This document shows positions 6,635 through 55,674 of a stretch of DNA of 59,911 nucleotides, piece by piece; position 1 is the stretch's first letter, and every line of letters starts with the position of its first letter. This stretch comes from a virus, in IMG/VR virus record IMGVR_UViG_3300035034_001394, positions 1 through 59,911 of that record; one strand, 5' to 3'. Both the position numbers and the translations under genes were made by a program. A model generated the notes under the pieces. That model worked only from the letters and a program-made list of their open reading frames with translations. It did not search any database and had not been told where the DNA came from.

Positions 6635-6724
6635 GGAAGAGGATCATTGCAAGGTTGCAAGCACGGTTTTGAAAACCGTTGGCACGTGAAAGCGTGTGGG
6701 GTTCGATACCTCCCTCTTCCGCCA
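6635..6724 (+). tRNA. tRNA-Ser (TGA)
   Basis: Class II tRNA: acceptor GGAAGAG/CTCTTCC, G73, encoded CCA, anticodon stem ACGGT/ACCGT with loop TTTGAAA, long variable arm with stem CACG/CGTG, T loop TTCGATA. The D arm is irregular. Confidence 0.9.
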
Positions 6725-14249: not shown

Positions 14250-14257
14250 TATAAATA
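14250..14257 (+). promoter_or_regulatory. T4-late-type promoter (TATAAATA)
   Basis: Exact T4 late consensus TATAAATA six bases before the ATG of the 14263 gene. The very short leader resembles the copies at 29903. Confidence 0.6.
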
Positions 14258-21214: not shown

Positions 21215-21877
21215 TTATTCTACTTTCTCTTTTCTCCACCACATGTCCACATCGAACCCATAGTGTACTAAGCGTAATGCAAAAGCATCACGCGCATGAT
21301 CCCATGTCATAAATGATGCTTTATGCTTAGGGGGTTCTGGACACCAGTCTGTCCAATTACCAATAGGAGGATGAGATGCTAAATCTCTCATTTCCCATGC
21401 AAGTGCTGCCATATCCGCATCATGAATGATATGCCATAGCTTGCTGGTTTCTTCTGGTTGATATCCTGCCTTAGAAATTATTTCATCTCTAATATTATTC
21501 TTAAACCCACTCCAAATATTAGAGAAGTCTGGGATAATCTGTGCTAATGATTTGGCAACTGGACTAATAATATCACCAATATAGGCTTCCTCACAATCAT
21601 GAAGCAGTCCTAATAATTGAATGTTTTTATCGTGACCCTGTAACCGTAGAATTTCTTCAACATACAAAGAATGTTGAGCTACGGAATAAGGCACAGGCAT
21701 TGCGCCAGCATATCTATTGTTACATGCCAAATGATGAGCAATATCACCCCATGACACATCCTTAGCATCAGGGTTAAGAATATCCATTGCCTGCCCTGAT
21801 ACTGTTTGAAGCCAATCTGTTGTGACTGACATTTGAGGCATATCATCACGTTTCATGGGCGTTGTATTAACAGTCAT
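21215..21877 (-). CDS. HD-domain nucleotidase (YfbR-like)
   Basis: 220 residues. The HD fold is marked by SVAQHSLYV (first His), LLGLLHDCEEAYIGD (HD pair plus downstream Glu) and a later IIHDADMAALAWE Asp. YfbR enzymes remove phosphate from deoxynucleoside 5'-monophosphates, so it would adjust nucleotide pools during replication. Its ATG overlaps the uvsX stop (TAATG), so the two are coupled. Confidence 0.85.
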   Translation of the reverse strand: MTVNTTPMKRDDMPQMSVTTDWLQTVSGQAMDILNPDAKDVSWGDIAHHLACNNRYAGAMPVPYSVAQHSLYVEEILRLQGHDKNIQLLGLLHDCEEAYIGDIISPVAKSLAQIIPDFSNIWSGFKNNIRDEIISKAGYQPEETSKLWHIIHDADMAALAWEMRDLASHPPIGNWTDWCPEPPKHKASFMTWDHARDAFALRLVHYGFDVDMWWRKEKVE

Positions 21878-23055
21878 TATGCGACTACTTTCTGATCTTC
21901 GACAATCTCTTCAGTGTTTGCTGTCTCTTCATTCACCATAGACCTACTAATGTCAGCTTCATCACTATTAAGATGCTCAACAATCAGATCAGCATATTGT
22001 TTAAAGTTGCTCTTTTTGAAACTTTCGGGTACACCTTCAATAGGATTTTCAGGACCATATGATACGGCTGTGATCTTTTTGAGCTGATGATTGGACATAA
22101 GATAGTCAAACAGTCCAGAATAAGGGTCTACACCATGAGGATATATAACCTGAATATCAACTGTTTCATTAGGTTTAGTGAAGCGACTCTTATATGTCAC
22201 AGCACGGCATTTCATACCAGCAACACGGCGACCTTCATCACTAAACTCATCAGGAATAAGGTCTTTATCTTCAACCTTATCACCTTTAAGCTTAAACTTA
22301 CTAAAGATGAATTGTTGTGTTGCTAGATATTCAGCACCACGACCACCAGTAATAATCTCATCAGGAGCAAATACATTCTGTGATACCATAGAGTGTGATG
22401 CAACCAGAATAGATACAGGGAGACGCTTAATGAGGTGTGACATAGCCTTGATAAACTCTTTGTTCTGTTTAGCTTGCTGACCTTGGTCTTTATTCTGTGT
22501 ACCCTTTTCAGCTTTTTCAGCAGCAGCATCAGTCATCAGGTTATTCAAACTATCAATAACAATGATAAGAGGTGGTATTCCATGACTGCTAACGTCCATA
22601 GGATCATCAACACCTTTAAGAGCATCACGGTACATATTAACAAATGATGTAATCAGGTCTTGTACATCACTAATCCGCTTAGACTCATTAAAGATGAATG
22701 TACCAGTCTTACCACTGAGTTCATCTTCAGTATAACCAAGACGCCCAAAGAACGGCATATTATCAGAAGCAGACTCTGTATCAATCCATAAGACAGAAGC
22801 TTCAAGTTCATTCATGGCCTGCTTGGCAGCAGTTGCTAATAGTAATGACTTACCAGAACCTGATTGACCAGCAACTTGTGCCAATTTACCGAATACAAAT
22901 GCTTTTTTGTAATTACCACTAAGAATATGATTAAGTGCATAGTTACCAGATGAATACCATAACTGACTTTTAGAGAATCCAAAGAATGTATCAGAAGATT
23001 CTAATTTTCTCATTACCTTTGAGAAATCAATATTTTTCTTTTTATGTTTACCCAT
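21877..23055 (-). CDS. uvsX: UvsX recombinase (RecA/Rad51 family)
   Basis: 392 residues from MGKHKKKNIDF, matching T4 UvsX (391). Walker A GQSGSGKS at 63-70, catalytic Glu in LWIDTESA near 90, Walker B LIIVIDSLNNL near 155, and a glycine-rich ITGGRGAEYLA loop. It forms filaments on single-stranded DNA and performs strand invasion with UvsY and gp32, all encoded nearby. The acidic C-terminal tail is typical of the family. Confidence 0.96.
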   Translation of the reverse strand: MGKHKKKNIDFSKVMRKLESSDTFFGFSKSQLWYSSGNYALNHILSGNYKKAFVFGKLAQVAGQSGSGKSLLLATAAKQAMNELEASVLWIDTESASDNMPFFGRLGYTEDELSGKTGTFIFNESKRISDVQDLITSFVNMYRDALKGVDDPMDVSSHGIPPLIIVIDSLNNLMTDAAAEKAEKGTQNKDQGQQAKQNKEFIKAMSHLIKRLPVSILVASHSMVSQNVFAPDEIITGGRGAEYLATQQFIFSKFKLKGDKVEDKDLIPDEFSDEGRRVAGMKCRAVTYKSRFTKPNETVDIQVIYPHGVDPYSGLFDYLMSNHQLKKITAVSYGPENPIEGVPESFKKSNFKQYADLIVEHLNSDEADISRSMVNEETANTEEIVEDQKVVA

Positions 23056-23142
23056 TATAAATCCTATATTTAGATGTAGGTCTATTGTTGTGTGAGAAGC
23101 CGAAACTTCCCACACTTTAATAGTCATTAATTTAATGATTGA

Positions 23143-24126
23143 TTATTTAGCGCGAGCCTTAATCTTCGCTAACATATCTTGAGGTGAAGGTTTAGATGAG
23201 CTTGTTTCTTTGACAGTCTCTTCCTTACTCACCACAGGCTCTGGCACTTCATCTTTAACAGGAAGGTCTTCGGCCATCTTTGCAGCAGGTTTATCCGCAG
23301 CATTATTAGACTCATCAGCATTATTAGAACTAGATGCTTCCTTATAAGGACGGAAATGCACTTCCCATTCAGAATTCCAAGGATCACCATTCAGATATGC
23401 GGCCAACATCTGCTCTTGTACGAGCCATGCTTCTGCGTCTGGTTCTTTTGGTAATAGGTCACGAAGATTAATAAGACCTTCTTCCTCAATCGCATCCTTC
23501 TCTTCTTGTGTAAGAGCAGAAGAACGATTAACAAATCCTGATGACGTGTAATCATTATAACCACTAGTAGCTTTAGTCTTCTTAAATAAGAAGTCTACGC
23601 CATTCTCATGGTCAATAGGGTCTGGACTAGGAAGCATAGTATCTTCATTTGTATCAGAAATCTTGTTTGCTTGAATATCTTTAAGCTTACGAGACATTGT
23701 TACATATCTGATTTTCTTCTCTGGTGCAGGCTCTTCAACCAAATCAGTCTCTCTTACAAATCCTTGAGCAAGATAATTACGCTTTACCCATAGGCTGCGC
23801 GCAGTATTCTCATCTTCATCAAAGAGTGCAGAAATGGTTGCCCACACTGAACATGATGCTGGTGTATACATGTTCCGACATGGCATTCTAATAGTGATTT
23901 TTTTACCAGCATTATCTGGATCATCAAAAGTCCACTCATACATCATTTCTTCAATGTAATAATAATGAGGGTTATCCTCATTTTTATCTTCAAGGAAACG
24001 GAACTTGGAAGATTCTCCAATTTCTACATCCCAGAATTTAAAAAATTTGGAAGGGGATGACCCCTGATTAGTTTTCTCTTTATCCGCCTTAAGACGATTT
24101 CTAAGAGCATCAATACGACTTGTCAT
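23143..24126 (-). CDS. 32: Single-stranded DNA-binding protein gp32
   Basis: 327 residues starting MTSRIDALRNRL, near the size of T4 gp32 (301). Basic N terminus for cooperative self-binding. The core begins SKFFKFWDVEIGESSKFRFLEDK and has a Cys region MPCRNMYTPASC that may ligate zinc. The acidic Ser/Ala/Glu-rich C-terminal tail, used to contact other replication proteins, runs from about 275. The ATG follows a repeat-bearing leader that looks like its own operator. Confidence 0.93.
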   Translation of the reverse strand: MTSRIDALRNRLKADKEKTNQGSSPSKFFKFWDVEIGESSKFRFLEDKNEDNPHYYYIEEMMYEWTFDDPDNAGKKITIRMPCRNMYTPASCSVWATISALFDEDENTARSLWVKRNYLAQGFVRETDLVEEPAPEKKIRYVTMSRKLKDIQANKISDTNEDTMLPSPDPIDHENGVDFLFKKTKATSGYNDYTSSGFVNRSSALTQEEKDAIEEEGLINLRDLLPKEPDAEAWLVQEQMLAAYLNGDPWNSEWEVHFRPYKEASSSNNADESNNAADKPAAKMAEDLPVKDEVPEPVVSKEETVKETSSSKPSPQDMLAKIKARAK

Positions 24127-24127
24127 T

Positions 24128-24196
24128 TCACAATTCTCCACAATTAAGTCACAATTTTTTCACAATGGCGAACTCTAAGGAACGCCTTCTCACAAT
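24128..24196 (-). promoter_or_regulatory. Candidate gp32 autoregulatory operator (phased ATTGTGA repeats)
   Basis: In the gene 32 leader the mRNA carries five copies of ATTGTGA/G (rc at 24128-24134, 24138-24144, 24149-24155, 24160-24166 and 24190-24196), the first four 10-11 bases apart, ending two bases before the ATG. T4 gp32 represses its own translation by binding an unstructured leader, so this arrangement fits a repeated binding array. A small GAACAA/TTGTTC hairpin lies just upstream. Confidence 0.6.
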
Positions 24197-24279: not shown

Positions 24280-26034
24280 TTAATGATATGCATACTCGTC
24301 ATATTGCTCTGGATCAGCCTCTGCATCCATGATGTCAATCTTCAAAGCATCATCAAGGTCTGGTTCATATTCCTGAATAATATCAATCATATGCAACATT
24401 TGCACACATGACATAACTCTATCATCATAAGCACCTGATTTGGCTGCAAATGTTGATGCACGTTTAACAAAACTTTTTAATTCTGTGATGAGTGGTTTTG
24501 AATATGGCACAAATCTTCCACGTTCAATCAATAGCTTGAGCATCATGCAATATTCTTTCTTCGTTGTCTTAGTGGTTAGAATACCTCTGCGACGTTCTTC
24601 ATCACTATCAACTAAAGTGCCGGGTATTCTATCTTCATCCACTTCAATGATATTGAGTATACCCTTACCAACACCATTAGCCTCAACCGTATAATAACAT
24701 TCACTATAACCCGTATGATCATCCATATCATACTGCTCATCTTCAATCGTTTTTAGGAACCGTACAAGCTGTTTAGCCTGATCGAGTTGGTCATGCTCAT
24801 TAGAAGTCCATTCCGCCACCTGTCGTAACTGTGGCAGCTCCCATACCTGAATAGATGCCCTATCTTCACCAACACCCTCAGATGGGTCTAATGTAACACC
24901 ATATATCTGATTAGGCTTAATAGGACAGAACCATCTTGCACCAAACTTATCAACATATCTTGGATTACGAGCATTAAGGTTCAACATAAGCAATCTTGTC
25001 GCTTCAATTAGTGTTTCCTCTTTAGATACAAATCGACACTCATATTCACGATACCATTCTGATAATGTGATACCTTCACGTAATGTTTGTGTCTTAAACC
25101 TCTCATCTCTATTAGGATGCTCTTTCCAGTGTATAAACATTCTGTAGAAGCCGCCAAGCTCTTCATCATCTTCGGATGATTGTGGTTTATCTTCATACAT
25201 AATACGTTCAAGATCAGAATAATCTTCTTTCTCGTATATTGTTTTATATGGTTTCGGCTTCTTCTTACCATCAATACCAACTTTGGTTAAGAACTCATCT
25301 TTCCATTCTACCGCATTAGGGGCATCCTGCGCACTGAACCAAATATTAGCAAACTTATCTTCATCGGTGTTTGGCGTTGATGTGATAATAAGCTTACCAT
25401 TTGTGGCAGATAGTGTAGGCTGAATAGCTCTCCATAAATCTTTTTGAATATTAGGTTTAACATATGCAAATTCGTCTAGGTATAATAAATCAATGGTAGA
25501 ACCACGACCAGTATCAGGTGTAGTTGTTTCTGCTCTAATACGGCTACCATTATCAAACTTTAAAGTGTGAACATTATCAACTTCAAGTCCACATTTAATA
25601 TACCAAGGACATTCCATGTACATGTCTTTAATCTTGGCAATACACTCTTTAGCAGAATCACCTTTGTTAGAGGCAATAAGTATTTCAACCTTTTCATTAA
25701 ACATTGCATACCATAGAATATAGATACATGCCGACATCGTTTTTCCAGATTGTCTACCAACCATTGTAATAACACGATCATAATTATGGAAGTTATGATA
25801 CATTCGTGTCTGATAATCATAAGGAATATACTTTGTATATACTTCTTTCTTTTTCTTCTTTTGATTAGGTTTTGGCTTAGCTTTATTTGGTATCTTTATA
25901 TGATTTTCAATAAAATGCATGTAATCATCTTCACACATTTCTAAGTCAACGATTTGGTCGATACTCGTATATACCTGTTCATATTGTGGTGGCTTTATTT
26001 TACCACCATCTTCTTCAGGACGAAATAGCGCCAT
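24280..26034 (-). CDS. 17: Terminase large subunit
   Basis: 584 residues, similar to T4 gp17 (610). ATPase half: Walker A GRQSGKT at 93-99, Walker B LLYLDEFA near 183-190, coupling motif ITSTPNT. Nuclease half: VTLDPSEG near 385 with a catalytic Asp, then DDRVMSC near the end. It powers packaging and cuts the concatemer. A late-type ACTAAATA lies 27 bases upstream of the ATG. Confidence 0.95.
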   Translation of the reverse strand: MALFRPEEDGGKIKPPQYEQVYTSIDQIVDLEMCEDDYMHFIENHIKIPNKAKPKPNQKKKKKEVYTKYIPYDYQTRMYHNFHNYDRVITMVGRQSGKTMSACIYILWYAMFNEKVEILIASNKGDSAKECIAKIKDMYMECPWYIKCGLEVDNVHTLKFDNGSRIRAETTTPDTGRGSTIDLLYLDEFAYVKPNIQKDLWRAIQPTLSATNGKLIITSTPNTDEDKFANIWFSAQDAPNAVEWKDEFLTKVGIDGKKKPKPYKTIYEKEDYSDLERIMYEDKPQSSEDDEELGGFYRMFIHWKEHPNRDERFKTQTLREGITLSEWYREYECRFVSKEETLIEATRLLMLNLNARNPRYVDKFGARWFCPIKPNQIYGVTLDPSEGVGEDRASIQVWELPQLRQVAEWTSNEHDQLDQAKQLVRFLKTIEDEQYDMDDHTGYSECYYTVEANGVGKGILNIIEVDEDRIPGTLVDSDEERRRGILTTKTTKKEYCMMLKLLIERGRFVPYSKPLITELKSFVKRASTFAAKSGAYDDRVMSCVQMLHMIDIIQEYEPDLDDALKIDIMDAEADPEQYDEYAYH

Positions 26035-30403: not shown

Positions 30404-30433
30404 GATAACTCCTTATGATATGTGTATCAATTG

Positions 30434-30441
30434 TATTTATA
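30434..30441 (-). promoter_or_regulatory. T4-late-type promoter (TATAAATA)
   Basis: TATAAATA on the - strand just downstream of the tmRNA terminator and upstream of the 30403 gene. Confidence 0.6.
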
Positions 30442-30452
30442 CTTTATTTAAA

Positions 30453-30476
30453 CACCCGCTCATTTCTGAACGGGTG
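30453..30476 (-). terminator. tmRNA terminator
   Basis: Hairpin CACCCG-TTC/GAG-CGGGTG followed by TTTAAAT on the - strand, directly after the tmRNA coding piece. Confidence 0.75.
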
Positions 30477-30489
30477 AGTATCACTATTC

Positions 30490-30790
30490 TGTTTCGAGGC
30501 TAATGACTAGCCCAGTGGATTAAGCAGCTAGTGCCAGACCCTCAAAAGAAACGTTGTTATCGTTTGCATTTGTAGTTGTTGAAGCTTCTAACGGGGCTTC
30601 ACATCGGAAATCTACTCACTCACTCTAACGTCAATCGAACCCATTTCATCCCCATCATGGACCATCGCAAGTTTAGTTATTAGAGCAACACTCTAGGTAT
30701 ATCTATCCAATAACGAACATCCGATGGCTCATGGTGGAGATGGACGGTATCGAACCGTCGTCTTGTCCGTCTTCATTCATGTATCATCAA
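30490..30790 (-). ncRNA. ssrA: Circularly permuted two-piece tmRNA
   Basis: Read on the - strand, the tRNA-like 3' half comes first: T arm GACGG-TTCGATA-CCGTC, then CATCTCC, A and CCA ending at 30732. About 80 bases later the coding piece begins with GGGGATG (30653-30647), which pairs with CATCTCC and gives the G3-U70 alanine identity pair. It is followed by GGGTTCGATTGACG, typical of the tmRNA D-loop region. The tag frame starts at GCA (30567-30565) and reads ANDNNVSFEGLALAA, then TAA (30522-30520), ending in the LAA-type degradation signal. A promoter (30801-30829) and a terminator flank it. Exact ends are estimates. tmRNA rescues stalled ribosomes and tags their products for proteolysis. 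Confidence 0.92.
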
Positions 30791-30800
30791 CTTCAAAATA

Positions 30801-30829
30801 TATTTAGTATATTTGATTTAAAATGTCAA
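30801..30829 (-). promoter_or_regulatory. tmRNA promoter
   Basis: On the - strand TTGACA (rc of 30824-30829), 17 bases, TAAATA (rc of 30801-30806), just upstream of the acceptor piece. Confidence 0.6.
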
Positions 30830-30834
30830 CATGT

Positions 30835-31107
30835 TTATACAGGATAAGGCAAAAACATCATCCAGTGTTCCGCTGTTTCAAACCTATGTCCAAATATTTC
30901 AAAAGGAGCATGATACCATTGGCTCAAACAATCGTTTTCCTTATTATTGTGATGACCATAAAAGTAAATTTCACTCCTTTTATGAGAAGGGTGTTTCCTA
31001 TTAATATAATCGATATCATATGTTTGGTCGAAATGTAATTCTTTCTTCCATTCATCTAATGCCTTAATAGTAGTGGTATTAGTTAAATCAATTTTATCCA
31101 ACAACAT
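30835..31107 (-). pseudogene. Truncated NADAR/YbiA-like domain
   Basis: 90 residues from MLLDKIDLTNTT (TTGGAG upstream). The end matches the start of NADAR domains: IYFYGHHNN, then LSQWYHAPFEIFGHRFETAEHWM (SN-F-Y--PF, G--F-T-EH). The domain normally runs about 100 residues further, but a stop falls right after HWMM, at the tmRNA promoter. NADAR enzymes cleave N-glycosidic bonds in ADP-ribose or riboflavin intermediates. Lacking its C-terminal part this copy is probably inactive. Confidence 0.65.
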
Positions 31108-31243
31108 ATGGCTCCAAATCTTCTTCTGGTTTGAGAATACTTTCACCACATATAGGACAAAAGTTCAAAGCATCTACAAGGGTGTAAAGCTCATCACACG
31201 GTGTAAGATTACCATGTCCATCTAGTGTGCATTTATCTGCCAT
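31094..31243 (-). CDS. Small zinc-ribbon-like protein
   Basis: 49 residues, MADKCTLDGHGNLTPCDEL with a later FCPICGES. The four Cys (and His) could bind zinc. It overlaps the start of the NADAR fragment by 14 bases. Not recognised. Confidence 0.65.
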   Translation of the reverse strand: MADKCTLDGHGNLTPCDELYTLVDALNFCPICGESILKPEEDLEPYVVG

Positions 31244-32858: not shown

Positions 32859-33182
32859 TTATCTATCCAGTTTACCAAGGATGTCATCACCCTTGAGGAA
32901 TAGTACCTTACGCCCGTCAAGTACATACTCAACACCAGCGCCTTGAGGGTAAAATACTGTATCACCCTTTTCAAAGTCATAAGGGATGAACTTAGACTTA
33001 TTCTTGCGGACTTTTTTGCGCGGCATACCTTCACCATGAGCAAGAACTGTTCCACGGGCTGGTATATCTTGTGATTGTTCTGGTAGGATAATACCACCTG
33101 TTGACTGTGATTCTTGTGAATCTACTTTCACAATAACATTATCAGCATAAACATTATATTTGTCAAAAAATGTATTAGACAT
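32859..33182 (-). CDS. Co-chaperonin GroES-like (gp31 counterpart)
   Basis: 107 residues. NVYADNVIVKVD, STGGIILPE (mobile loop ending in the GroEL-binding IIL) and RGTVLAHGEG, then GDTVFYPQGAG match GroES. It would cap host GroEL to fold phage head protein, as T4 gp31 does. A TTGACA promoter (33230-33235, - strand) precedes it. Confidence 0.92.
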   Translation of the reverse strand: MSNTFFDKYNVYADNVIVKVDSQESQSTGGIILPEQSQDIPARGTVLAHGEGMPRKKVRKNKSKFIPYDFEKGDTVFYPQGAGVEYVLDGRKVLFLKGDDILGKLDR

Positions 33183-36154: not shown

Positions 36155-36729
36155 TTTTTCCTAGCCTTTCCTTTAACACCAATCTTACTAGATGGATGAA
36201 CAGGCCTTGATGGACGTTTAGGTTTGTTACGTCGTTGGCCAAATGAGCCAAATAAGTCTTTTTCAGTTAATATTCTAAAGCCTATACCTCTACGTTTACA
36301 CCAGCTTTGTGCCATTCTCCACTTACCGTGATTTTTCTGAATGGCTTCCATGTCACGCTTGTTACGAGCTTCCGTTATATAAGTCTCATGTGATGGTTTA
36401 ATCTCAATTAGTAATGTTTCAATCACATGAATAGTACGACCATTTACACGCTTATTCTTTTTGATACGCATGAGAAAGTCAGGGACATACATAGATGGTC
36501 TTGGCCGACCATTAGCTAGTCTACGAGTTGGATCAGGATAAGGTATTTGCACAGGTTCTGATGCCCATTCTAATACATCAGGATTCAAATCACAAAACTG
36601 TGCAAATGATACTTCCCACCTTGACCTTAAAGTGATTGGATGTTCACCTTTATACTTTTGTGGATTACGACAAGTATATTTTACTTGTGGCGCTTGGTTT
36701 CGTTTTCTATTTGTATATCTACTAGCCAA
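36151..36729 (-). CDS. 4: Head-completion protein (gp4-like)
   Basis: 192 residues from a TTG at 36729, chosen because AGGAGG lies eight bases before it; no ATG fits. YTCRNPQKYKGEHPITLRS and WEVSF...WASEPVQIPYPDP, then YVPDFLMRI...IEIKPS match T4 gp4 and its nuclease-like fold (PDF and E-x-K). It finishes the head after packaging. Confidence 0.85.
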   Translation of the reverse strand: MASRYTNRKRNQAPQVKYTCRNPQKYKGEHPITLRSRWEVSFAQFCDLNPDVLEWASEPVQIPYPDPTRRLANGRPRPSMYVPDFLMRIKKNKRVNGRTIHVIETLLIEIKPSHETYITEARNKRDMEAIQKNHGKWRMAQSWCKRRGIGFRILTEKDLFGSFGQRRNKPKRPSRPVHPSSKIGVKGKARKK

Positions 36730-38131
36730 ACCATTTACCTCCTGCAATACGCTCCACAATCGGATTGTTATTGTCACCTAACCATGAGCCAGTACGTGGT
36801 GATGGTCTACTAATGTTATCTTCAGCACTAAGGCCATCATTTGTAAGACGTGATACTTCTCGTGAAACAAGATTAACACCTTCTTCAACAAGTAATGCAA
36901 CATCTATAAATCGGCCTTGCTCAATAGCCTGCTTGACTTGTTTAGCAATCTTGACCGCTTCACGTACTGATTGTATTGGTGAACCTTTTACTGCCGCATT
37001 AAATAAATTTTGTTGCAAGTCTTCAATATTAATTTTGCCACCCTGTATACTCTTCTGAAAGGCGACAACAAGGTCACGAGCAGTAACACCAATAATAGAT
37101 AGCCCATCCATAACAGTATTATTATATTGTTCTATTCTAGCATTAATTCTAGCAGTATTTTGCAATATATTATATTGTAATGTGTCCTGATCAATGACAA
37201 AATTAGGATTACCATTGCTTTGCTGTTGTTGAAGATTATCCAACCATAGGTTAATTTCTTCTGTTAACTTGCCACTATTTGACCATGTTCCAGCCTTATC
37301 CTCATGTATAAGACTACCACCAGAACTTGCACCCGTATTGGCATCAGTACTAACAGCATATAGTCTATCTTGATATAATACTGGTAAATCATTAATTAGG
37401 TCAGTATCAATAGACCAATTAACACCAATGTCTCTTATGAGGTGTTCATATTCTAATGTGAGGGTTGCCTCTTGAATGTCATCGGTCTCATTATCCATCG
37501 TCGATAATGAGAAGTCACTAACTTGTGGATTAAAAATTTTGTAGATATTTGTGCTAGATGGTTCTGTGCCAAGGTCATACAGTTCAATACTATCAATAAA
37601 TTTTCCGATTGGGATACGAAGACCTAGTGATGGTATACTATCATTATTTAGCAATTGTCTGAAGTCTGACCCATAGTTAGCATCACTACCCCTAAAGCTT
37701 AAGGGAGCATGATGATAATGTGTATGATATGCTTCTAATAGGCCTTGGATATATGATGTGCTATCATCTCTAAACGTAAGTGTAATAGGATTATATTCCA
37801 TCTTCGTTTTGATGATGTGTTTTCGATTATATGAATTTAGTTTTTCAGTTGTGTATGATATTGATGGCTTATCCATAGATTTAGTAAGAACATGTAATCT
37901 ACCGTTCGTTACAGCTTCTTGGAGATTTCCTATAAGCGCATCAGGATTAAAATTTATGACAATAAAGAACAGATGTGAGTGACGAGGCTGCGAAATTGCA
38001 ATCTCATCACCCGAATTAGCACCCATAAATTTTGAGGTGGAATTATAAAGACTAGAATGATTGGGAACCCGATTAGGTCTATCTTGAGATAACCTATCGG
38101 GTAACCGTCCACCACGAGGAATTAAAGCCAT
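36722..38131 (-). CDS. Tail-tube-like baseplate protein (gp54/gp48-like)
   Basis: 469 residues. The N-terminal third has a tail-tube fold signature (HLFFIVINFNPD, then ISYTTEKLNSYNRKHIIKTK and MEYNPITLTFRDD), seen in the baseplate proteins that start tail-tube assembly. The remainder is helical and extended (about 280-440). Next to the tail tube gene. Confidence 0.75.
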   Translation of the reverse strand: MALIPRGGRLPDRLSQDRPNRVPNHSSLYNSTSKFMGANSGDEIAISQPRHSHLFFIVINFNPDALIGNLQEAVTNGRLHVLTKSMDKPSISYTTEKLNSYNRKHIIKTKMEYNPITLTFRDDSTSYIQGLLEAYHTHYHHAPLSFRGSDANYGSDFRQLLNNDSIPSLGLRIPIGKFIDSIELYDLGTEPSSTNIYKIFNPQVSDFSLSTMDNETDDIQEATLTLEYEHLIRDIGVNWSIDTDLINDLPVLYQDRLYAVSTDANTGASSGGSLIHEDKAGTWSNSGKLTEEINLWLDNLQQQQSNGNPNFVIDQDTLQYNILQNTARINARIEQYNNTVMDGLSIIGVTARDLVVAFQKSIQGGKINIEDLQQNLFNAAVKGSPIQSVREAVKIAKQVKQAIEQGRFIDVALLVEEGVNLVSREVSRLTNDGLSAEDNISRPSPRTGSWLGDNNNPIVERIAGGKWFG

Positions 38132-38146
38132 ATGTTCCTCTTATTA

Positions 38147-38815
38147 TTATGCTGTAACAGCAGCTCCACCAACACCAAGACTTGATAGTCCGCTACGTGC
38201 ATCATGTTCTGGACCATGATCGAATGACCCCATAATACGGCCTTCACCATCATAACAAATAGCATTATTGAATTGAATGTTTACTGATGTCTCTTTTGGA
38301 TTAGAGTCATCATATGTTAGTTCGCCTGGGTCATCAGATGTTAATGAACAACCGACAACACACCATTTGCGTAGAATAACAGGATCAGCAGCAGCATTAC
38401 CAGCAGAAGCACCACCAGATAGAATATCAATATCCATCTCAAACATGTAGTTTTCACCAGCTCTCGAACCAGTCTGATCAAAGAAGTTATACTGTTTACT
38501 CAACTGCTGTTGAACACGAATACGAGCCTCATTATCAATATCATCAAATAGACGTAATGTTGTATCCTGCCATTCAGGACGTGTGATACCCTTGTGTTGA
38601 GACATGTATGCCCATGCCTGCCATGTACCAAATTGTGAACTAGGCTCACCGATTGACTTCACCGCACGAGTTAAATCATAAGGCGCAGTATCACCAGGGT
38701 TGCCAAAGTTATAAAACACAACTCTGAAACGGTCAGTAAGTATAGGTTGTAATCTTGGTGTACGAGCGCCATCAACGCCAGGGATACCAAAATTGATAAA
38801 TGAATTTACAGCCAA
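38147..38815 (-). CDS. 19: Tail tube protein
   Basis: 222 residues. RFRVVFYNFG near the start, a central WQDTTLRLFDDIDNEARIRV and a later CVVGCSLTSDDPGELTYDD are typical of contractile-tail tube subunits. About 30% longer than T4 gp19 (163). A CATAAATA late promoter precedes it. Confidence 0.88.
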   Translation of the reverse strand: MAVNSFINFGIPGVDGARTPRLQPILTDRFRVVFYNFGNPGDTAPYDLTRAVKSIGEPSSQFGTWQAWAYMSQHKGITRPEWQDTTLRLFDDIDNEARIRVQQQLSKQYNFFDQTGSRAGENYMFEMDIDILSGGASAGNAAADPVILRKWCVVGCSLTSDDPGELTYDDSNPKETSVNIQFNNAICYDGEGRIMGSFDHGPEHDARSGLSSLGVGGAAVTA

Positions 38816-45965: not shown

Positions 45966-46043
45966 TGGTGGAGCATGAGAGAATCGAACTCTTCATTTCA
46001 CAACAATCGTGCAAGGATCGTCGGCTGCCCACAGCTATGCCCC
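45966..46043 (-). tRNA. tRNA-Ala (TGC)
   Basis: Acceptor GGGGCAT/ATGCTCC with the G3-U70 alanine signature, A73, encoded CCA; anticodon stem CGATC/GATTG, loop CTTGCAC (TGC), T loop TTCGATT. The D arm is short. Confidence 0.8.
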
Positions 46044-47227: not shown

Positions 47228-47254
47228 TACTATCAAATTATGATAGGCAAAGTT

Positions 47255-48436
47255 ATGAAGATTTCACCTAGTTGGTTACATACTCCTGAAGTTCAAACAA
47301 TCATGAAAGCATTGAACACACGTAAGCGTGATGATGCCAGATTTGTTGGTGGATGTGTTCGTGATGCTATTCTTGATATTGAATGCCATGATATTGACAT
47401 TGCCACTAAACTCACACCGAACATAGTCAAGAAGCGTCTTGAACGTATTGGTGTTTCCATTCATCCAACTGGTATTGGGCATGGTACAGTAACTGCTGTA
47501 TTCCATGGATGTGAATTTGAGATTACAACATTACGTTGTGATACTGAAACAGATGGCCGTAGGGCTAAGGTAAAGTTCACAACAAAATGGATTAAGGATG
47601 CTAAACGTCGTGATTTTACGATGAACGCACTATATGCATCAGCGGACGGAACCGTGCATGATCCATTAAAAATAGGTGTTGAGCATTGCCGCAAGAGACT
47701 AGTAAAATTTGTCGGTAATCCTGATGAACGTATCAAAGAGGATTATCTTAGAATATTACGCTTCTATAGATTTAGTGCCAAATATTCAATATATATTAGC
47801 AATCATATGGCAGACTCTGCATGTAGACGACATAAGAATAATATTAAACTTTTGTCCGTCGAGCGCGTGTGGGATGAAATGAAGAAGATACTTGTCATAT
47901 CTCCAAGCATGTTTGAATATATGATAAGGTTAGATATAATTCCACCTGCTTATGGGGAATTGGGTTTTGGTGTAAGTCTTTTTACAGATATGAAGGTTAT
48001 GTATGATGACTATATGTTGATGTTTTTATGCTTTGTACCAAAAGGTGACAAATATAATATCAATAAACTTGTGCGAAATTTTAAAATGTCGAATGCGGAG
48101 AAGAACCGCATGTTGGCATGGGCATAAAATGATACAAAGTGTGATACCAATCAGAAAGATTTTGTTAAGTCTTTATATTATCATGGTGTTCAATCAACAA
48201 TTGATTCAATGGTAATTGATTATTCTCAGAACATTGATGCAGATAAGGATAAATTACAAAACTCTATATCATTTTGTAATGATTGGACCAAGCCCAAGTT
48301 TCCAATTGATGGCCATGATGCATTAGAGGCAGGTTACTCTGGTGAGGGTATTCGCGTCGTTCTAAAACTATTAGAACATCAATGGGTAGAAAGCGATTTC
48401 AAACTCACACGAGAAGAATTGCTTACTAATATGTAG
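47255..48436 (+). pseudogene. cca: CCA tRNA nucleotidyltransferase interrupted by a TAA
   Basis: From MKISPSWLHTPE (ATG 47255) the frame shows FVGGCVRDAILD and HDIDIATKL (the class II nucleotidyltransferase G-G--RD and D-x-D), RRAKVKF, RRDFTMNALY and EDYLRILRFYRFSA. TAA at 48125-48127 stops it, but the same frame goes on as NDTKCDTNQKDFVKSLYYHG to WTKPKFPIDGHDALEAGYSG and KLTREELLTNM, the expected C-terminal region, ending at 48436. One nonsense codon thus splits a complete gene; the truncated protein would keep the catalytic head. It repairs or builds the 3' CCA of tRNAs. Confidence 0.85.
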
Positions 48437-51623: not shown

Positions 51624-53240
51624 TTAGGCACACCATTCCCATTTTGCATTACCACAATCCCATATTCTATTCCATCCTTGTAATTGTCTATTCTCCCACT
51701 CTGTCATATTAGGATCATCATCACTGTTTTTACGCAGTGTATAACGATGATGGCGCTTGAGAGGATAACAATTAATAGGATAATACCAATAATTTGGCAC
51801 AGTGTCATCAAGACGAGTGAAACCCAAATGTGAATAAACATTCCCCTCCCCCCATCTAAGGTCAGCATACGAAATAACATGTGCAGGTTTCTCATCCTTA
51901 ATGAAAGCGTTAAATAATTTTGATGCGCCACCTTGAACGTTCCATCCCTGCTTAGTAGCAAAACGGGATATTTCCCATGTGTCTGTATTTTTACGTGACA
52001 CCTCACCCTTACTAAACGTCATCACACTAATTAAGTTATCACCATAGAATAATCCATATTTTAATTTTGAGCGACTATATCCCCCAATATGATTATTCTC
52101 CATAAAAGGTTTTGCGTCTTCGGCGCTAATAATGCGAATTGAACATTTACGAGCGCCAATCTTAATAGCTGTGCCCTTACCGATACGATTCTTAATCATA
52201 GACAACACAAGTTGCTTTTTATTGACCCATTCATCCTCAAATATAGTAATCAGAGATTTATTTTGCTCCTTTAAACGGAGATATTTATCACGGTGATAAG
52301 TTCGGTCCTTGCCCTTACCATATTTTCCATGATTTTCACCGTGCCAATACAGTCCACACATTTCTATACCCATACCCTGTTCTGGTATATATATGTCAAT
52401 CTCCAAAGGTGAAATGAGAGACCTGTTACCAATCTCATTAGGCACACCAAGGTTGGTAATATATTCAGCTAAATTGATCTCATGACTAGAACGGGTATGC
52501 GAAATACATAAACCAAAGCATGAAATTTCAGTCTTTTGTCTATAAGGATCAAACATCTGACTATGACGTGAAGCCTTGATACCACAATTAATACACTTGA
52601 TGCGCCATGTGCCTTTACCAGCAACAGGATAAAAGTCATCATCCAGCTCAAGCCCAAGCGATTTCAGGCCATCTATTTTTGCCAGCATCGCATTATGAGA
52701 TTTTGTTTTGTTTGATTTTATTGCACCTGCAACATATGATTCAGGAGTACGCTTTTCACAAGCTTCCTGATAAAGTGGCTTATGACCATTATTAACACGT
52801 GTGATTAAAGCACGACGACCCCTATCAGACATTTGTTCAGGATTGGTAGTAGCATATTCAGTCTGAGCATCCGATAACTTCTTTTTAGATGCTTCTGTGT
52901 GGCTCTTACCGTACATGGGGTGAGATGTTTTATCTTTTAGGCGTTCCAGAGCCTTCTGAGAGATAATGGCCTTTGTAGCCGCTGTGTGTGTTGAACCCTT
53001 GTTCTTGGCTGGTTTGCCTTTTTTCGCCTTAGAGATTTTTCTCTTGGTTGCATCAGATAGCTTACGGCCAGTATTTTGGGAAATGGTTTTCTTACTAATC
53101 TTTTCACGAAGCGCTTCTGAATGAGTATGGCCATATTTAATTCTGTAATCAGATGGTAGTATATCATGCTTTTTCAGATGCTGGTATGTGAGTTGTGAAA
53201 ACTCCTCACCACAGATTAAACATTTGATTTTATTTTTCAT
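51624..53240 (-). CDS. Homing endonuclease (NUMOD3 plus Vsr/EDxHD-like)
   Basis: 538 residues. N-terminal zinc-finger-like CLICGEEFSQLTYQHLKKH. Then three NUMOD3-type repeats (about 45-135: S-x-x-T-K-x-K-I-S-x-A-K-K-G and similar) that bind DNA. Residues about 280-345 carry LEIDIYIPEQGMGIEMCGLYWHGE and TIFEDEW, the D...E-x-x... pattern of Vsr-like (EDxHD) nucleases. A C-terminal domain of about 190 residues follows. A free-standing mobile gene next to the tail sheath gene. Confidence 0.85.
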   Translation of the reverse strand: MKNKIKCLICGEEFSQLTYQHLKKHDILPSDYRIKYGHTHSEALREKISKKTISQNTGRKLSDATKRKISKAKKGKPAKNKGSTHTAATKAIISQKALERLKDKTSHPMYGKSHTEASKKKLSDAQTEYATTNPEQMSDRGRRALITRVNNGHKPLYQEACEKRTPESYVAGAIKSNKTKSHNAMLAKIDGLKSLGLELDDDFYPVAGKGTWRIKCINCGIKASRHSQMFDPYRQKTEISCFGLCISHTRSSHEINLAEYITNLGVPNEIGNRSLISPLEIDIYIPEQGMGIEMCGLYWHGENHGKYGKGKDRTYHRDKYLRLKEQNKSLITIFEDEWVNKKQLVLSMIKNRIGKGTAIKIGARKCSIRIISAEDAKPFMENNHIGGYSRSKLKYGLFYGDNLISVMTFSKGEVSRKNTDTWEISRFATKQGWNVQGGASKLFNAFIKDEKPAHVISYADLRWGEGNVYSHLGFTRLDDTVPNYWYYPINCYPLKRHHRYTLRKNSDDDPNMTEWENRQLQGWNRIWDCGNAKWEWCA

Positions 53241-53313: not shown

Positions 53314-55674
53314 TTAAAAATCAGCATCAGGACTATATACTGTAATCGGAACAAAGATAAATTCTACCGCCCCAATTGGTTTAATACCAATCTCTGCCCA
53401 TAATTCATTACGTGTAATACGTTCCGCAGTATTTGTATTCTCATCACAACGAGAAACAGAATCATAAAGTGCTCTTTGTGTAATAAGTCCAGCAAGGTAT
53501 CTATCGATTATGTTACGAACCTGACCCCATGTCTTGGCATCATTTTGAGCACCAAGGAATGGACGTAGATTCACCTTGATGTCATACTTGATCTTACTAA
53601 CAAGACGTGCAACATTAATACGTGATAGCATTGTGTTGCCACCATACATAGTTTTGTTACCCATGCTTCTAAGACCAACACGATACTGATTAACAACAGG
53701 GTTGATATTATTATCATAAAGAATAGCCGATTGACCTTTGTTAAGGTTAACAGCTTTGAATTCATTATTATAATCAAGATAACCAACAGATGTTAGTCCT
53801 GATACTAAACCTCTTTGGTCACCCATTGGCGCAAACCATGGCGCAGCTACTTGGTCATTATATGCCAATAGTCTTAGAGCATTAGCTGAGGCTGGTACAA
53901 ATATTGTTTGACCATCAATGTTGGTTGACAGACCATTCATGTAGAACCATGAACCATAAGGTGTTGTTGAGGATGTAAATCCATCTACACCATTTTCTGA
54001 TGCCAGATTTGCATTTGTTTTCCACTCTGTAGCAGTAATTTCACGGCCTTTAGTAATACCTGAAGGTTTCATGTGGAATGGAATATCAGAACTGATATGA
54101 GCGCGTTCTTCGATGGCTGTATTAAGTGATACCATTTCATCAATGAGTTCAGGATAGCCAGGCGCTGCAATATGCGTATAGAAAATAGCTTCAGCATCAA
54201 GATTGTTCGTATCAGAAATTGCTGCCTGTAATGCGCGACTAACAGCAAACCTTTGAGCACGTCTAAGGAATCTTGCACCAACAAATGGCTTCCAATGCCC
54301 ATGCAATGCTTCATCATATGTTGCTTTTTCACCCGTAGAATCATCAATAACTTCGGGTTGATATTCAGAATCATACACTTTAACAGTACATGTAGTGCGA
54401 GGGTCATCAAGGTTTAGCCAGAATGAGCCATCAGCAACAGCAGATGGTGCAATATATGTTGCGCTAATATCTACTGATGATGTGATGTTTTCCCATCCTG
54501 AACCATTATATCTTTTGATCACTGGATACTGATCAAAATTATCTACTGCAACGTCTACCCAAATTGCACCAGTGCTAGGTGTAATAGGAGGTGATGCAGA
54601 AATAACTTTTTGATCGGCAGTAGGATTAGCCACAGTAGTTGTTTCAACTTCAGACCATTCATTATTAACTTCACGATAAAGTGCAAAATCAGTAAAAGTA
54701 TCATCATACCACATTTGGCCATCAATAGCAGCACGTGTAGGTGCACTGGTATCAAGAATAAATGTTAATGGTCCATAAGTCTCACCATTAGAAACGTTAA
54801 GTACTCTAACACCATTAGTAACAGTAGTACTAACATCTTCCCAAACAGTTGATGCTGTTTTGGTAATTGGCTCTGTAAGAGAACGTAATGGTGTAACTTT
54901 AACCCATGTATCATCAGATGCACGATATCTTGACAGTTTGAGGTCATAACCACCATTAGCAGCAGATGTCTTCCACCAATAATCATTAGCACTAGCACCC
55001 AATGGGGCAGTATCAGAAATCCATAGGTCTTCCGACGTTGCAGTACGACCATCAATAGTGGTTGATGATAAATCAATAGAACCAATATCAGTCCAACCAC
55101 CAGTATCACGTTTAATCATTACCGTACCGTCAGTATTAGAATAATCAAAAGCAATGTCACCATCATCACCAGTTTCGAGCGTTGGTGTCACAGTGTACAT
55201 ATTAAAGGTAACATCTTCCCATGCAGTATTGGCAGAATTACGACGATAGAAACCACCAATAGTCGCATCAGTATCAATCCAATAAGTTCCATCAGCAGCA
55301 GCACGTGTCGGCTCATCAGAAGAAGGCTGAAGCTGTTTCATATCAATATCAGCTCTTGTGTAATAAGCTAATGATGAACCACCCTTCAGATAATGCCATA
55401 ATGCCCATGCACCATATTCATTCGCCTCATCACCATGCACAGGGACACCAGCGCTTTCAGTGAACATAGGCTTACCTAACAGTGCAATCGCGTCTGATGC
55501 GCCTGTGACAGCTCTTAAAGTGTGACTCTCAGTTGTACCAAGAGCAATGCCCGTTCCATCATATGATGGTTTATTAGACTCTGTAGCAAGAATGAACAAA
55601 GGTACATTACTTGGAAAGTTTTCATTGAATACTGATTGATCTACAACCGATACGCTTACATTTGGTGCTGCCAT
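53314..55674 (-). CDS. 18: Tail sheath protein with inserted tandem repeats
   Basis: 786 residues. The start (APNVSVSVVDQSVFNENFP) and C-terminal half (from WKPFVGARFLRRAQRF to RITRNELWAEIGIKPIG and VPITVYSPDADF) are those of T4-type contractile sheath. Between about 115 and 440 lie five repeats of the form DG-x-x-W-x-D...W-x-x-V, absent from T4 gp18 (659). They would project from the sheath surface. CCTAAATA stands upstream. Confidence 0.92.
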   Translation of the reverse strand: MAAPNVSVSVVDQSVFNENFPSNVPLFILATESNKPSYDGTGIALGTTESHTLRAVTGASDAIALLGKPMFTESAGVPVHGDEANEYGAWALWHYLKGGSSLAYYTRADIDMKQLQPSSDEPTRAAADGTYWIDTDATIGGFYRRNSANTAWEDVTFNMYTVTPTLETGDDGDIAFDYSNTDGTVMIKRDTGGWTDIGSIDLSSTTIDGRTATSEDLWISDTAPLGASANDYWWKTSAANGGYDLKLSRYRASDDTWVKVTPLRSLTEPITKTASTVWEDVSTTVTNGVRVLNVSNGETYGPLTFILDTSAPTRAAIDGQMWYDDTFTDFALYREVNNEWSEVETTTVANPTADQKVISASPPITPSTGAIWVDVAVDNFDQYPVIKRYNGSGWENITSSVDISATYIAPSAVADGSFWLNLDDPRTTCTVKVYDSEYQPEVIDDSTGEKATYDEALHGHWKPFVGARFLRRAQRFAVSRALQAAISDTNNLDAEAIFYTHIAAPGYPELIDEMVSLNTAIEERAHISSDIPFHMKPSGITKGREITATEWKTNANLASENGVDGFTSSTTPYGSWFYMNGLSTNIDGQTIFVPASANALRLLAYNDQVAAPWFAPMGDQRGLVSGLTSVGYLDYNNEFKAVNLNKGQSAILYDNNINPVVNQYRVGLRSMGNKTMYGGNTMLSRINVARLVSKIKYDIKVNLRPFLGAQNDAKTWGQVRNIIDRYLAGLITQRALYDSVSRCDENTNTAERITRNELWAEIGIKPIGAVEFIFVPITVYSPDADF

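Follow-up and report, generated by a model that had tools for sequence, protein, structure and literature searches.

Here, we describe a permuted tmRNA gene (ssrA) on the minus strand of a 59,911-nucleotide stretch of viral DNA, referred to as the window, which judging from its sequence is very likely complete and probably functional, and which resides in a large T4-like phage probably infecting an alphaproteobacterium. ARAGORN called a permuted tmRNA at 30429-30824 (minus strand). Rfam covariance models matched the same locus, RF04321 (tmRNA_permuted) at 115.1 bits against a cut-off of 47 (E 9e-22) and, as the best-scoring of the lineage-specific tmRNA families, RF01849 (alpha_tmRNA) at 81 bits against a cut-off of 50. 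Given this E value and the absence of any ARAGORN tmRNA from 200 dinucleotide-preserving shuffles of the window, the call lies far beyond chance. Most alphaproteobacterial genomes score 127-166 bits with RF04321, above the 115 bits found here, and the gene therefore reads as a diverged copy of permuted tmRNA; the match forms the small hairpin of the RF04321 model only in part. Together with the T4-like genes on both sides, these matches bear out the original prediction of a phage-encoded, circularly permuted tmRNA, for which a covariance search with a high-scoring permuted match had been proposed as a check.

The gene runs from approximately 30796 to 30453 and comprises, with its flanks, the following features:

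30801..30829, minus strand: candidate promoter read from the sequence, TTGACA at 30829-30824, 17-nt spacer, TAAATA at 30806-30801
30732..30796, minus strand: acceptor piece (P2 5' strand, T arm, acceptor 3' strand, ACCA), 5' end approximate
30759-30743, minus strand: T arm, loop TTCGATA
30742-30736, minus strand: acceptor 3' strand CATCTCC
30735-30732, minus strand: ACCA end with encoded CCA
30654..30731, minus strand: intervening spacer of 78 nt from CCA to G1, predicted hairpin
30453..30653, minus strand: coding piece (acceptor 5' strand, D-loop analogue, P2 3' strand, tag region, downstream stem-loop), 3' end approximate
30653-30647, minus strand: acceptor 5' strand GGGGATG
30520..30567, minus strand: tag reading frame from the resume codon GCA to TAA, ANDNNVSFEGLALAA
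30453..30476, minus strand: terminator-like hairpin with 10 pairs, a GAAA loop, -17.2 kcal/mol and a weak U tract

As predicted, the acceptor half lies upstream of the coding half, with the CCA end at 30732 and G1 at 30653, and GGGGATG pairs with CATCTCC at 7/7 positions, including G3-U70. With its A discriminator and CCA, this acceptor stem is of the alanine type, and the T stem is paired at 5/5 positions. The predicted tag was likewise found at 30567-30520, where the GCA resume codon at 30567 precedes a tag of 15 amino acids, ANDNNVSFEGLALAA, followed by TAA, with the usual AND... start and an LAA end of the degradation type. The spacer folds on its own at -25.2 kcal/mol and extends the acceptor stem in the predicted precursor; by analogy with known two-piece tmRNAs, it is expected to be cut out by processing, and we infer a two-piece form for this tmRNA.

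The proposal that a promoter and a terminator flank the gene stood in part. TTGACA with its 17-nt spacer and the strong hairpin are in its favor, whereas TAAATA matches the consensus at 3/6 positions, the U tract is weak, and neither element appeared in the output of the consensus promoter and terminator scans. Because TAAATA is a poor second hexamer, we rate the promoter as plausible at most. A reading frame at 30835-31149 (minus strand), which opens a NADAR domain (positions 1-46 of 163), ends right before this candidate promoter. The window holds no second NADAR piece, and the NADAR-like gene looks as if it had been truncated by the arrival of the tmRNA unit.

Folding of the single sequence did not cleanly recover the P2 helix, and relatives were therefore used for the helix test. 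A scan of IMG/VR with a resume-codon motif returned at least 120 stretches; among the matches listed, ARAGORN called permuted tmRNAs in at least 51 other viral contigs, a figure that may include ssrA genes of hosts, since some of these contigs could derive from prophage edges, and so cannot be read as a strict number of phage genes. From the matches listed, 48 distinct viral sequences were parsed, the window included. The parser demanded at least 6/7 acceptor pairs, so full acceptor pairing in this set is partly selected, but compensating changes are unaffected. G1-C72, G2-C71, and G3-U70 were present in 48/48 of these sequences, and the variable acceptor and T-stem pairs stay paired across them. 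When the window was aligned to 11 viral relatives chosen from the more similar ones (12 sequences), 98.3% of the cells were paired over 25 proposed pairs of the acceptor, T stem, and P2, a value that leans upward, the P2 pairs being those of the Rfam match minus three mismatched or doubtful positions. Double-sided changes, the count of which is independent of this choice, occurred at 15/25 pairs, among them all five inner P2 pairs. None of 500 shuffles reached the real values, slid versions were 42-47% paired, and an independent RNAalifold consensus recovered the acceptor, the T stem, and most of P2. Covariation across the 12 sequences thus supports a P2 helix that joins both tmRNA pieces, and pairing preserved through changes indicates selection. 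Both helices whose absence the original prediction had named as speaking against it, acceptor and P2, were hence found.

Several genes of the window place the tmRNA within a T4-like phage, which also encodes a primase and a DnaB-like helicase:

21877-23127: UvsX
23143-24141: ssDNA-binding protein
24280-26034: terminase large subunit (TerL)
32859-33182: GroES
36722-38815: tail tube proteins
53314-55674: tail sheath

T4-like genes flank the tmRNA on both sides, with TerL lying approximately 4.6 kb away in one direction and GroES, tail tubes, and sheath in the other. The T4-type late promoter motif TATAAATA also occurs on both sides, at 14250, 41855, and 57013 (plus strand) and at 30441, 29910, and 24227 (minus strand), mostly ahead of reading frames; the copy at 30441 lies about a dozen bases beyond the terminator hairpin, ahead of the next gene, and one copy precedes a tRNA-Asn gene. 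Base composition is even throughout the window. TerL and sheath are nearest to those of jumbo phages of approximately 285-366 kb (PA5oct-like Pseudomonas phages, GAP32, and RaK2; 31-38% identity), and the 60-kb window is therefore probably a fragment of a jumbo phage. It had no DNA-level match to named phages. The closest phage relatives, the contigs L004 and L005, have TerL proteins 52-58% identical, and both end before the tmRNA locus; no empty site without tmRNA was found. In these two contigs, the TerL matches (L004 1-2233, L005 2278-5709) are split by gaps of approximately 0.5-1.3 kb; their terminase gene appears to be interrupted by inserted DNA, possibly introns or inteins. No relatives of the genes flanking the tmRNA (NADAR remnant, PTH2-like gene, downstream ORF) were found among viral contigs.

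Other RNA-related features are spread over the window. Several tRNA genes are scattered in this phage, which encodes a protein resembling CCA-adding enzyme or poly(A) polymerase (47240-48127, plus strand; PF01743, 102.7 bits). An Rfam tRNA-Sec match at 6635-6720 (plus strand; 50.3 bits), without ARAGORN call, was rejected as a selenocysteine tRNA: its anticodon loop is UUUGAAA and, its anticodon being UGA, it is most likely a tRNA-Ser. An ARAGORN tRNA-Ala call at 45966-46043 (minus strand) places the anticodon unusually, is matched by no Rfam tRNA family, and is probably false.

An alphaproteobacterial host is likely for several reasons. The permuted form scored over the cut-off in 174/190 sampled genomes of Alphaproteobacteria, taken as the class to which a Novosphingobium genome belongs, so that nearly all members have it. 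RF01849 is the best-scoring lineage-specific family and, among phages, the PTH2-like protein matched only Rhizobium and Caulobacter phages. A further protein (51624-53240, minus strand) combines an N-terminal domain of the ROS/MucR type, a mainly alphaproteobacterial family, with NUMOD3 motifs as in homing endonucleases. A pattern search in bacteria for the origin of the tmRNA was uninformative, the tmRNAs called in its matches being one-piece throughout.

The likeliest function of the gene is ordinary trans-translation with host SmpB, alanyl-tRNA synthetase (AlaRS), and proteases. A single precursor would be transcribed and cut by host tRNA-processing enzymes at the CCA end and at G1, removing the 78-nt spacer, and the acceptor and P2 helices would keep the two pieces together. 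Host AlaRS would charge the CCA end via G3-U70, and the tmRNA, with host SmpB and EF-Tu, would enter stalled ribosomes and add (A)ANDNNVSFEGLALAA, the LAA end of which would deliver the tagged product to proteases of the host, e.g., ClpXP. A benefit for the phage might lie in the recycling of ribosomes while mRNAs are being cut or broken in infected cells. Whereas anatomy, homology, and helix conservation are established here, these steps from transcription to benefit, like the host, are deduced. No smpB was found in the window, and the tmRNA would therefore depend on host SmpB; likewise, smpB was absent from 47 other viral records with permuted tmRNA among the matches listed, which are mostly fragments. 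A Pth2-like gene close by had been put forward as a functional partner. This idea found no backing, considering that the PTH2-like match, 1.3 kb from the tmRNA, is below threshold (20.6 bits against a Pfam cut-off of 23) and that such a match recurred in 0/47 of the same other records. Replacement or retuning of host trans-translation is possible, and we found no experimental test of the role of phage permuted tmRNA in infection in the publications consulted.

Might the gene have been captured from a host, for instance by imprecise excision from an ssrA integration site, and persist as a passenger or a degrading relic that does nothing for the phage? Phages are known to integrate at host ssrA and can carry parts of that locus (PMC9004378); moreover, the gene is diverged, at 115 bits, and its position directly after the 3'-truncated NADAR-like frame suggests a gain of DNA at this spot. 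However, it is whole rather than a 3' fragment, with acceptor, T, and P2 helices, G3-U70, CCA, tag frame, and stop intact, its pair changes relative to other copies keep pairing, no integrase was found among the searched part of the window proteins, and the neighbors are T4-like, all of which makes a passenger unlikely. It is extremely improbable that the gene is foreign to the phage and stems from an assembly chimera or from host DNA at a prophage edge. The window is a metagenomic virus record and possibly a fragment, but the flanking T4-like genes, the even base composition, and the late motifs on both sides, including that just past the terminator, speak against such an origin.

A retuned tmRNA, which would use the trans-translation machinery chiefly for tagging host proteins for degradation, or for competing with the tmRNA of the host, and less for routine ribosome rescue, also seems doubtful to us. 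The tag of the window is unlike the few alphaproteobacterial tags read (e.g., ANDNEMALAA and ANDNFAPVALAA), degradation of host proteins was proposed for the Melnitz tmRNA (PMC9004378), and phage DS6A has an inhibitory tmRNA that lacks a tag (PMC11915505). Yet the tag is not missing as in DS6A and retains its usual start and LAA end, the viral copies in the matches listed differ freely in their tag middles, and no sequence feature favors retuning over ordinary rescue. More speculative still, and quite unlikely, is a mobile promoter-tmRNA-terminator unit that inserted into the end of the NADAR gene, or displaced that end, and was kept since the phage tag alters which nascent proteins are marked, or the speed of their degradation, in infection. 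Ordinary rescue by a functional phage-borne gene remains our preferred reading.

Phage permuted tmRNA has been published before, and the window adds a diverged copy in a different phage lineage. By 2021, 53 two-piece tmRNAs were counted among 133 unique tmRNA structures from 18,146 phage genomes, 50 of the 53 from marine or aquatic samples (PMC9004378), a 2025 database lists 79 unique tmRNA sequences from bacteriophages, all forms included (PMC11915505), and tmRNA genes were reported in virulent Bradyrhizobium phages (PMC12656738). The 53 published cases and the at least 51 IMG/VR contigs contradict the original view of phage copies as rare; permuted tmRNA is common in environmental viruses.

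Melnitz and related marine myophages (PMC9004378) resemble the window in carrying a complete permuted tmRNA of alphaproteobacterial type in a T4-like myophage. Melnitz infects OM43, and its tmRNA gene comes with a predicted glutamine riboswitch (PMC9004378), whereas the window has no Rfam riboswitch match and belongs to a different, jumbo-type lineage; its tmRNA showed no DNA similarity to phage collection records. One-piece or tag-less phage tmRNAs, such as that of DS6A (PMC11915505), are phage-encoded as well, but are not permuted or lack the tag frame. The alphaproteobacterial permuted tmRNA (RF01849, Caulobacter type) shares the order of the halves, acceptor, T arm, P2, and AND...LAA tag with the window copy, which differs in its phage location, its lower score, and its T loop, TTCGATA as opposed to GGCGGTA in the small sample of six alphaproteobacterial copies parsed. 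Among the matches listed, the IMG/VR permuted tmRNAs (L022, L068, L096, L123, and others) are at most 76-78% identical to it over the tRNA-like domain and tag region; they share the same P2 by covariation, but vary in tag middle, T loop, and spacer length (18-247 nt) and have other neighbors. The window thus provides a well-supported example of permuted tmRNA in a jumbo-type T4-like lineage and, with the 48 distinct viral sequences among the matches listed and their clear covariation, presents this RNA as a recurrent accessory gene of phages.
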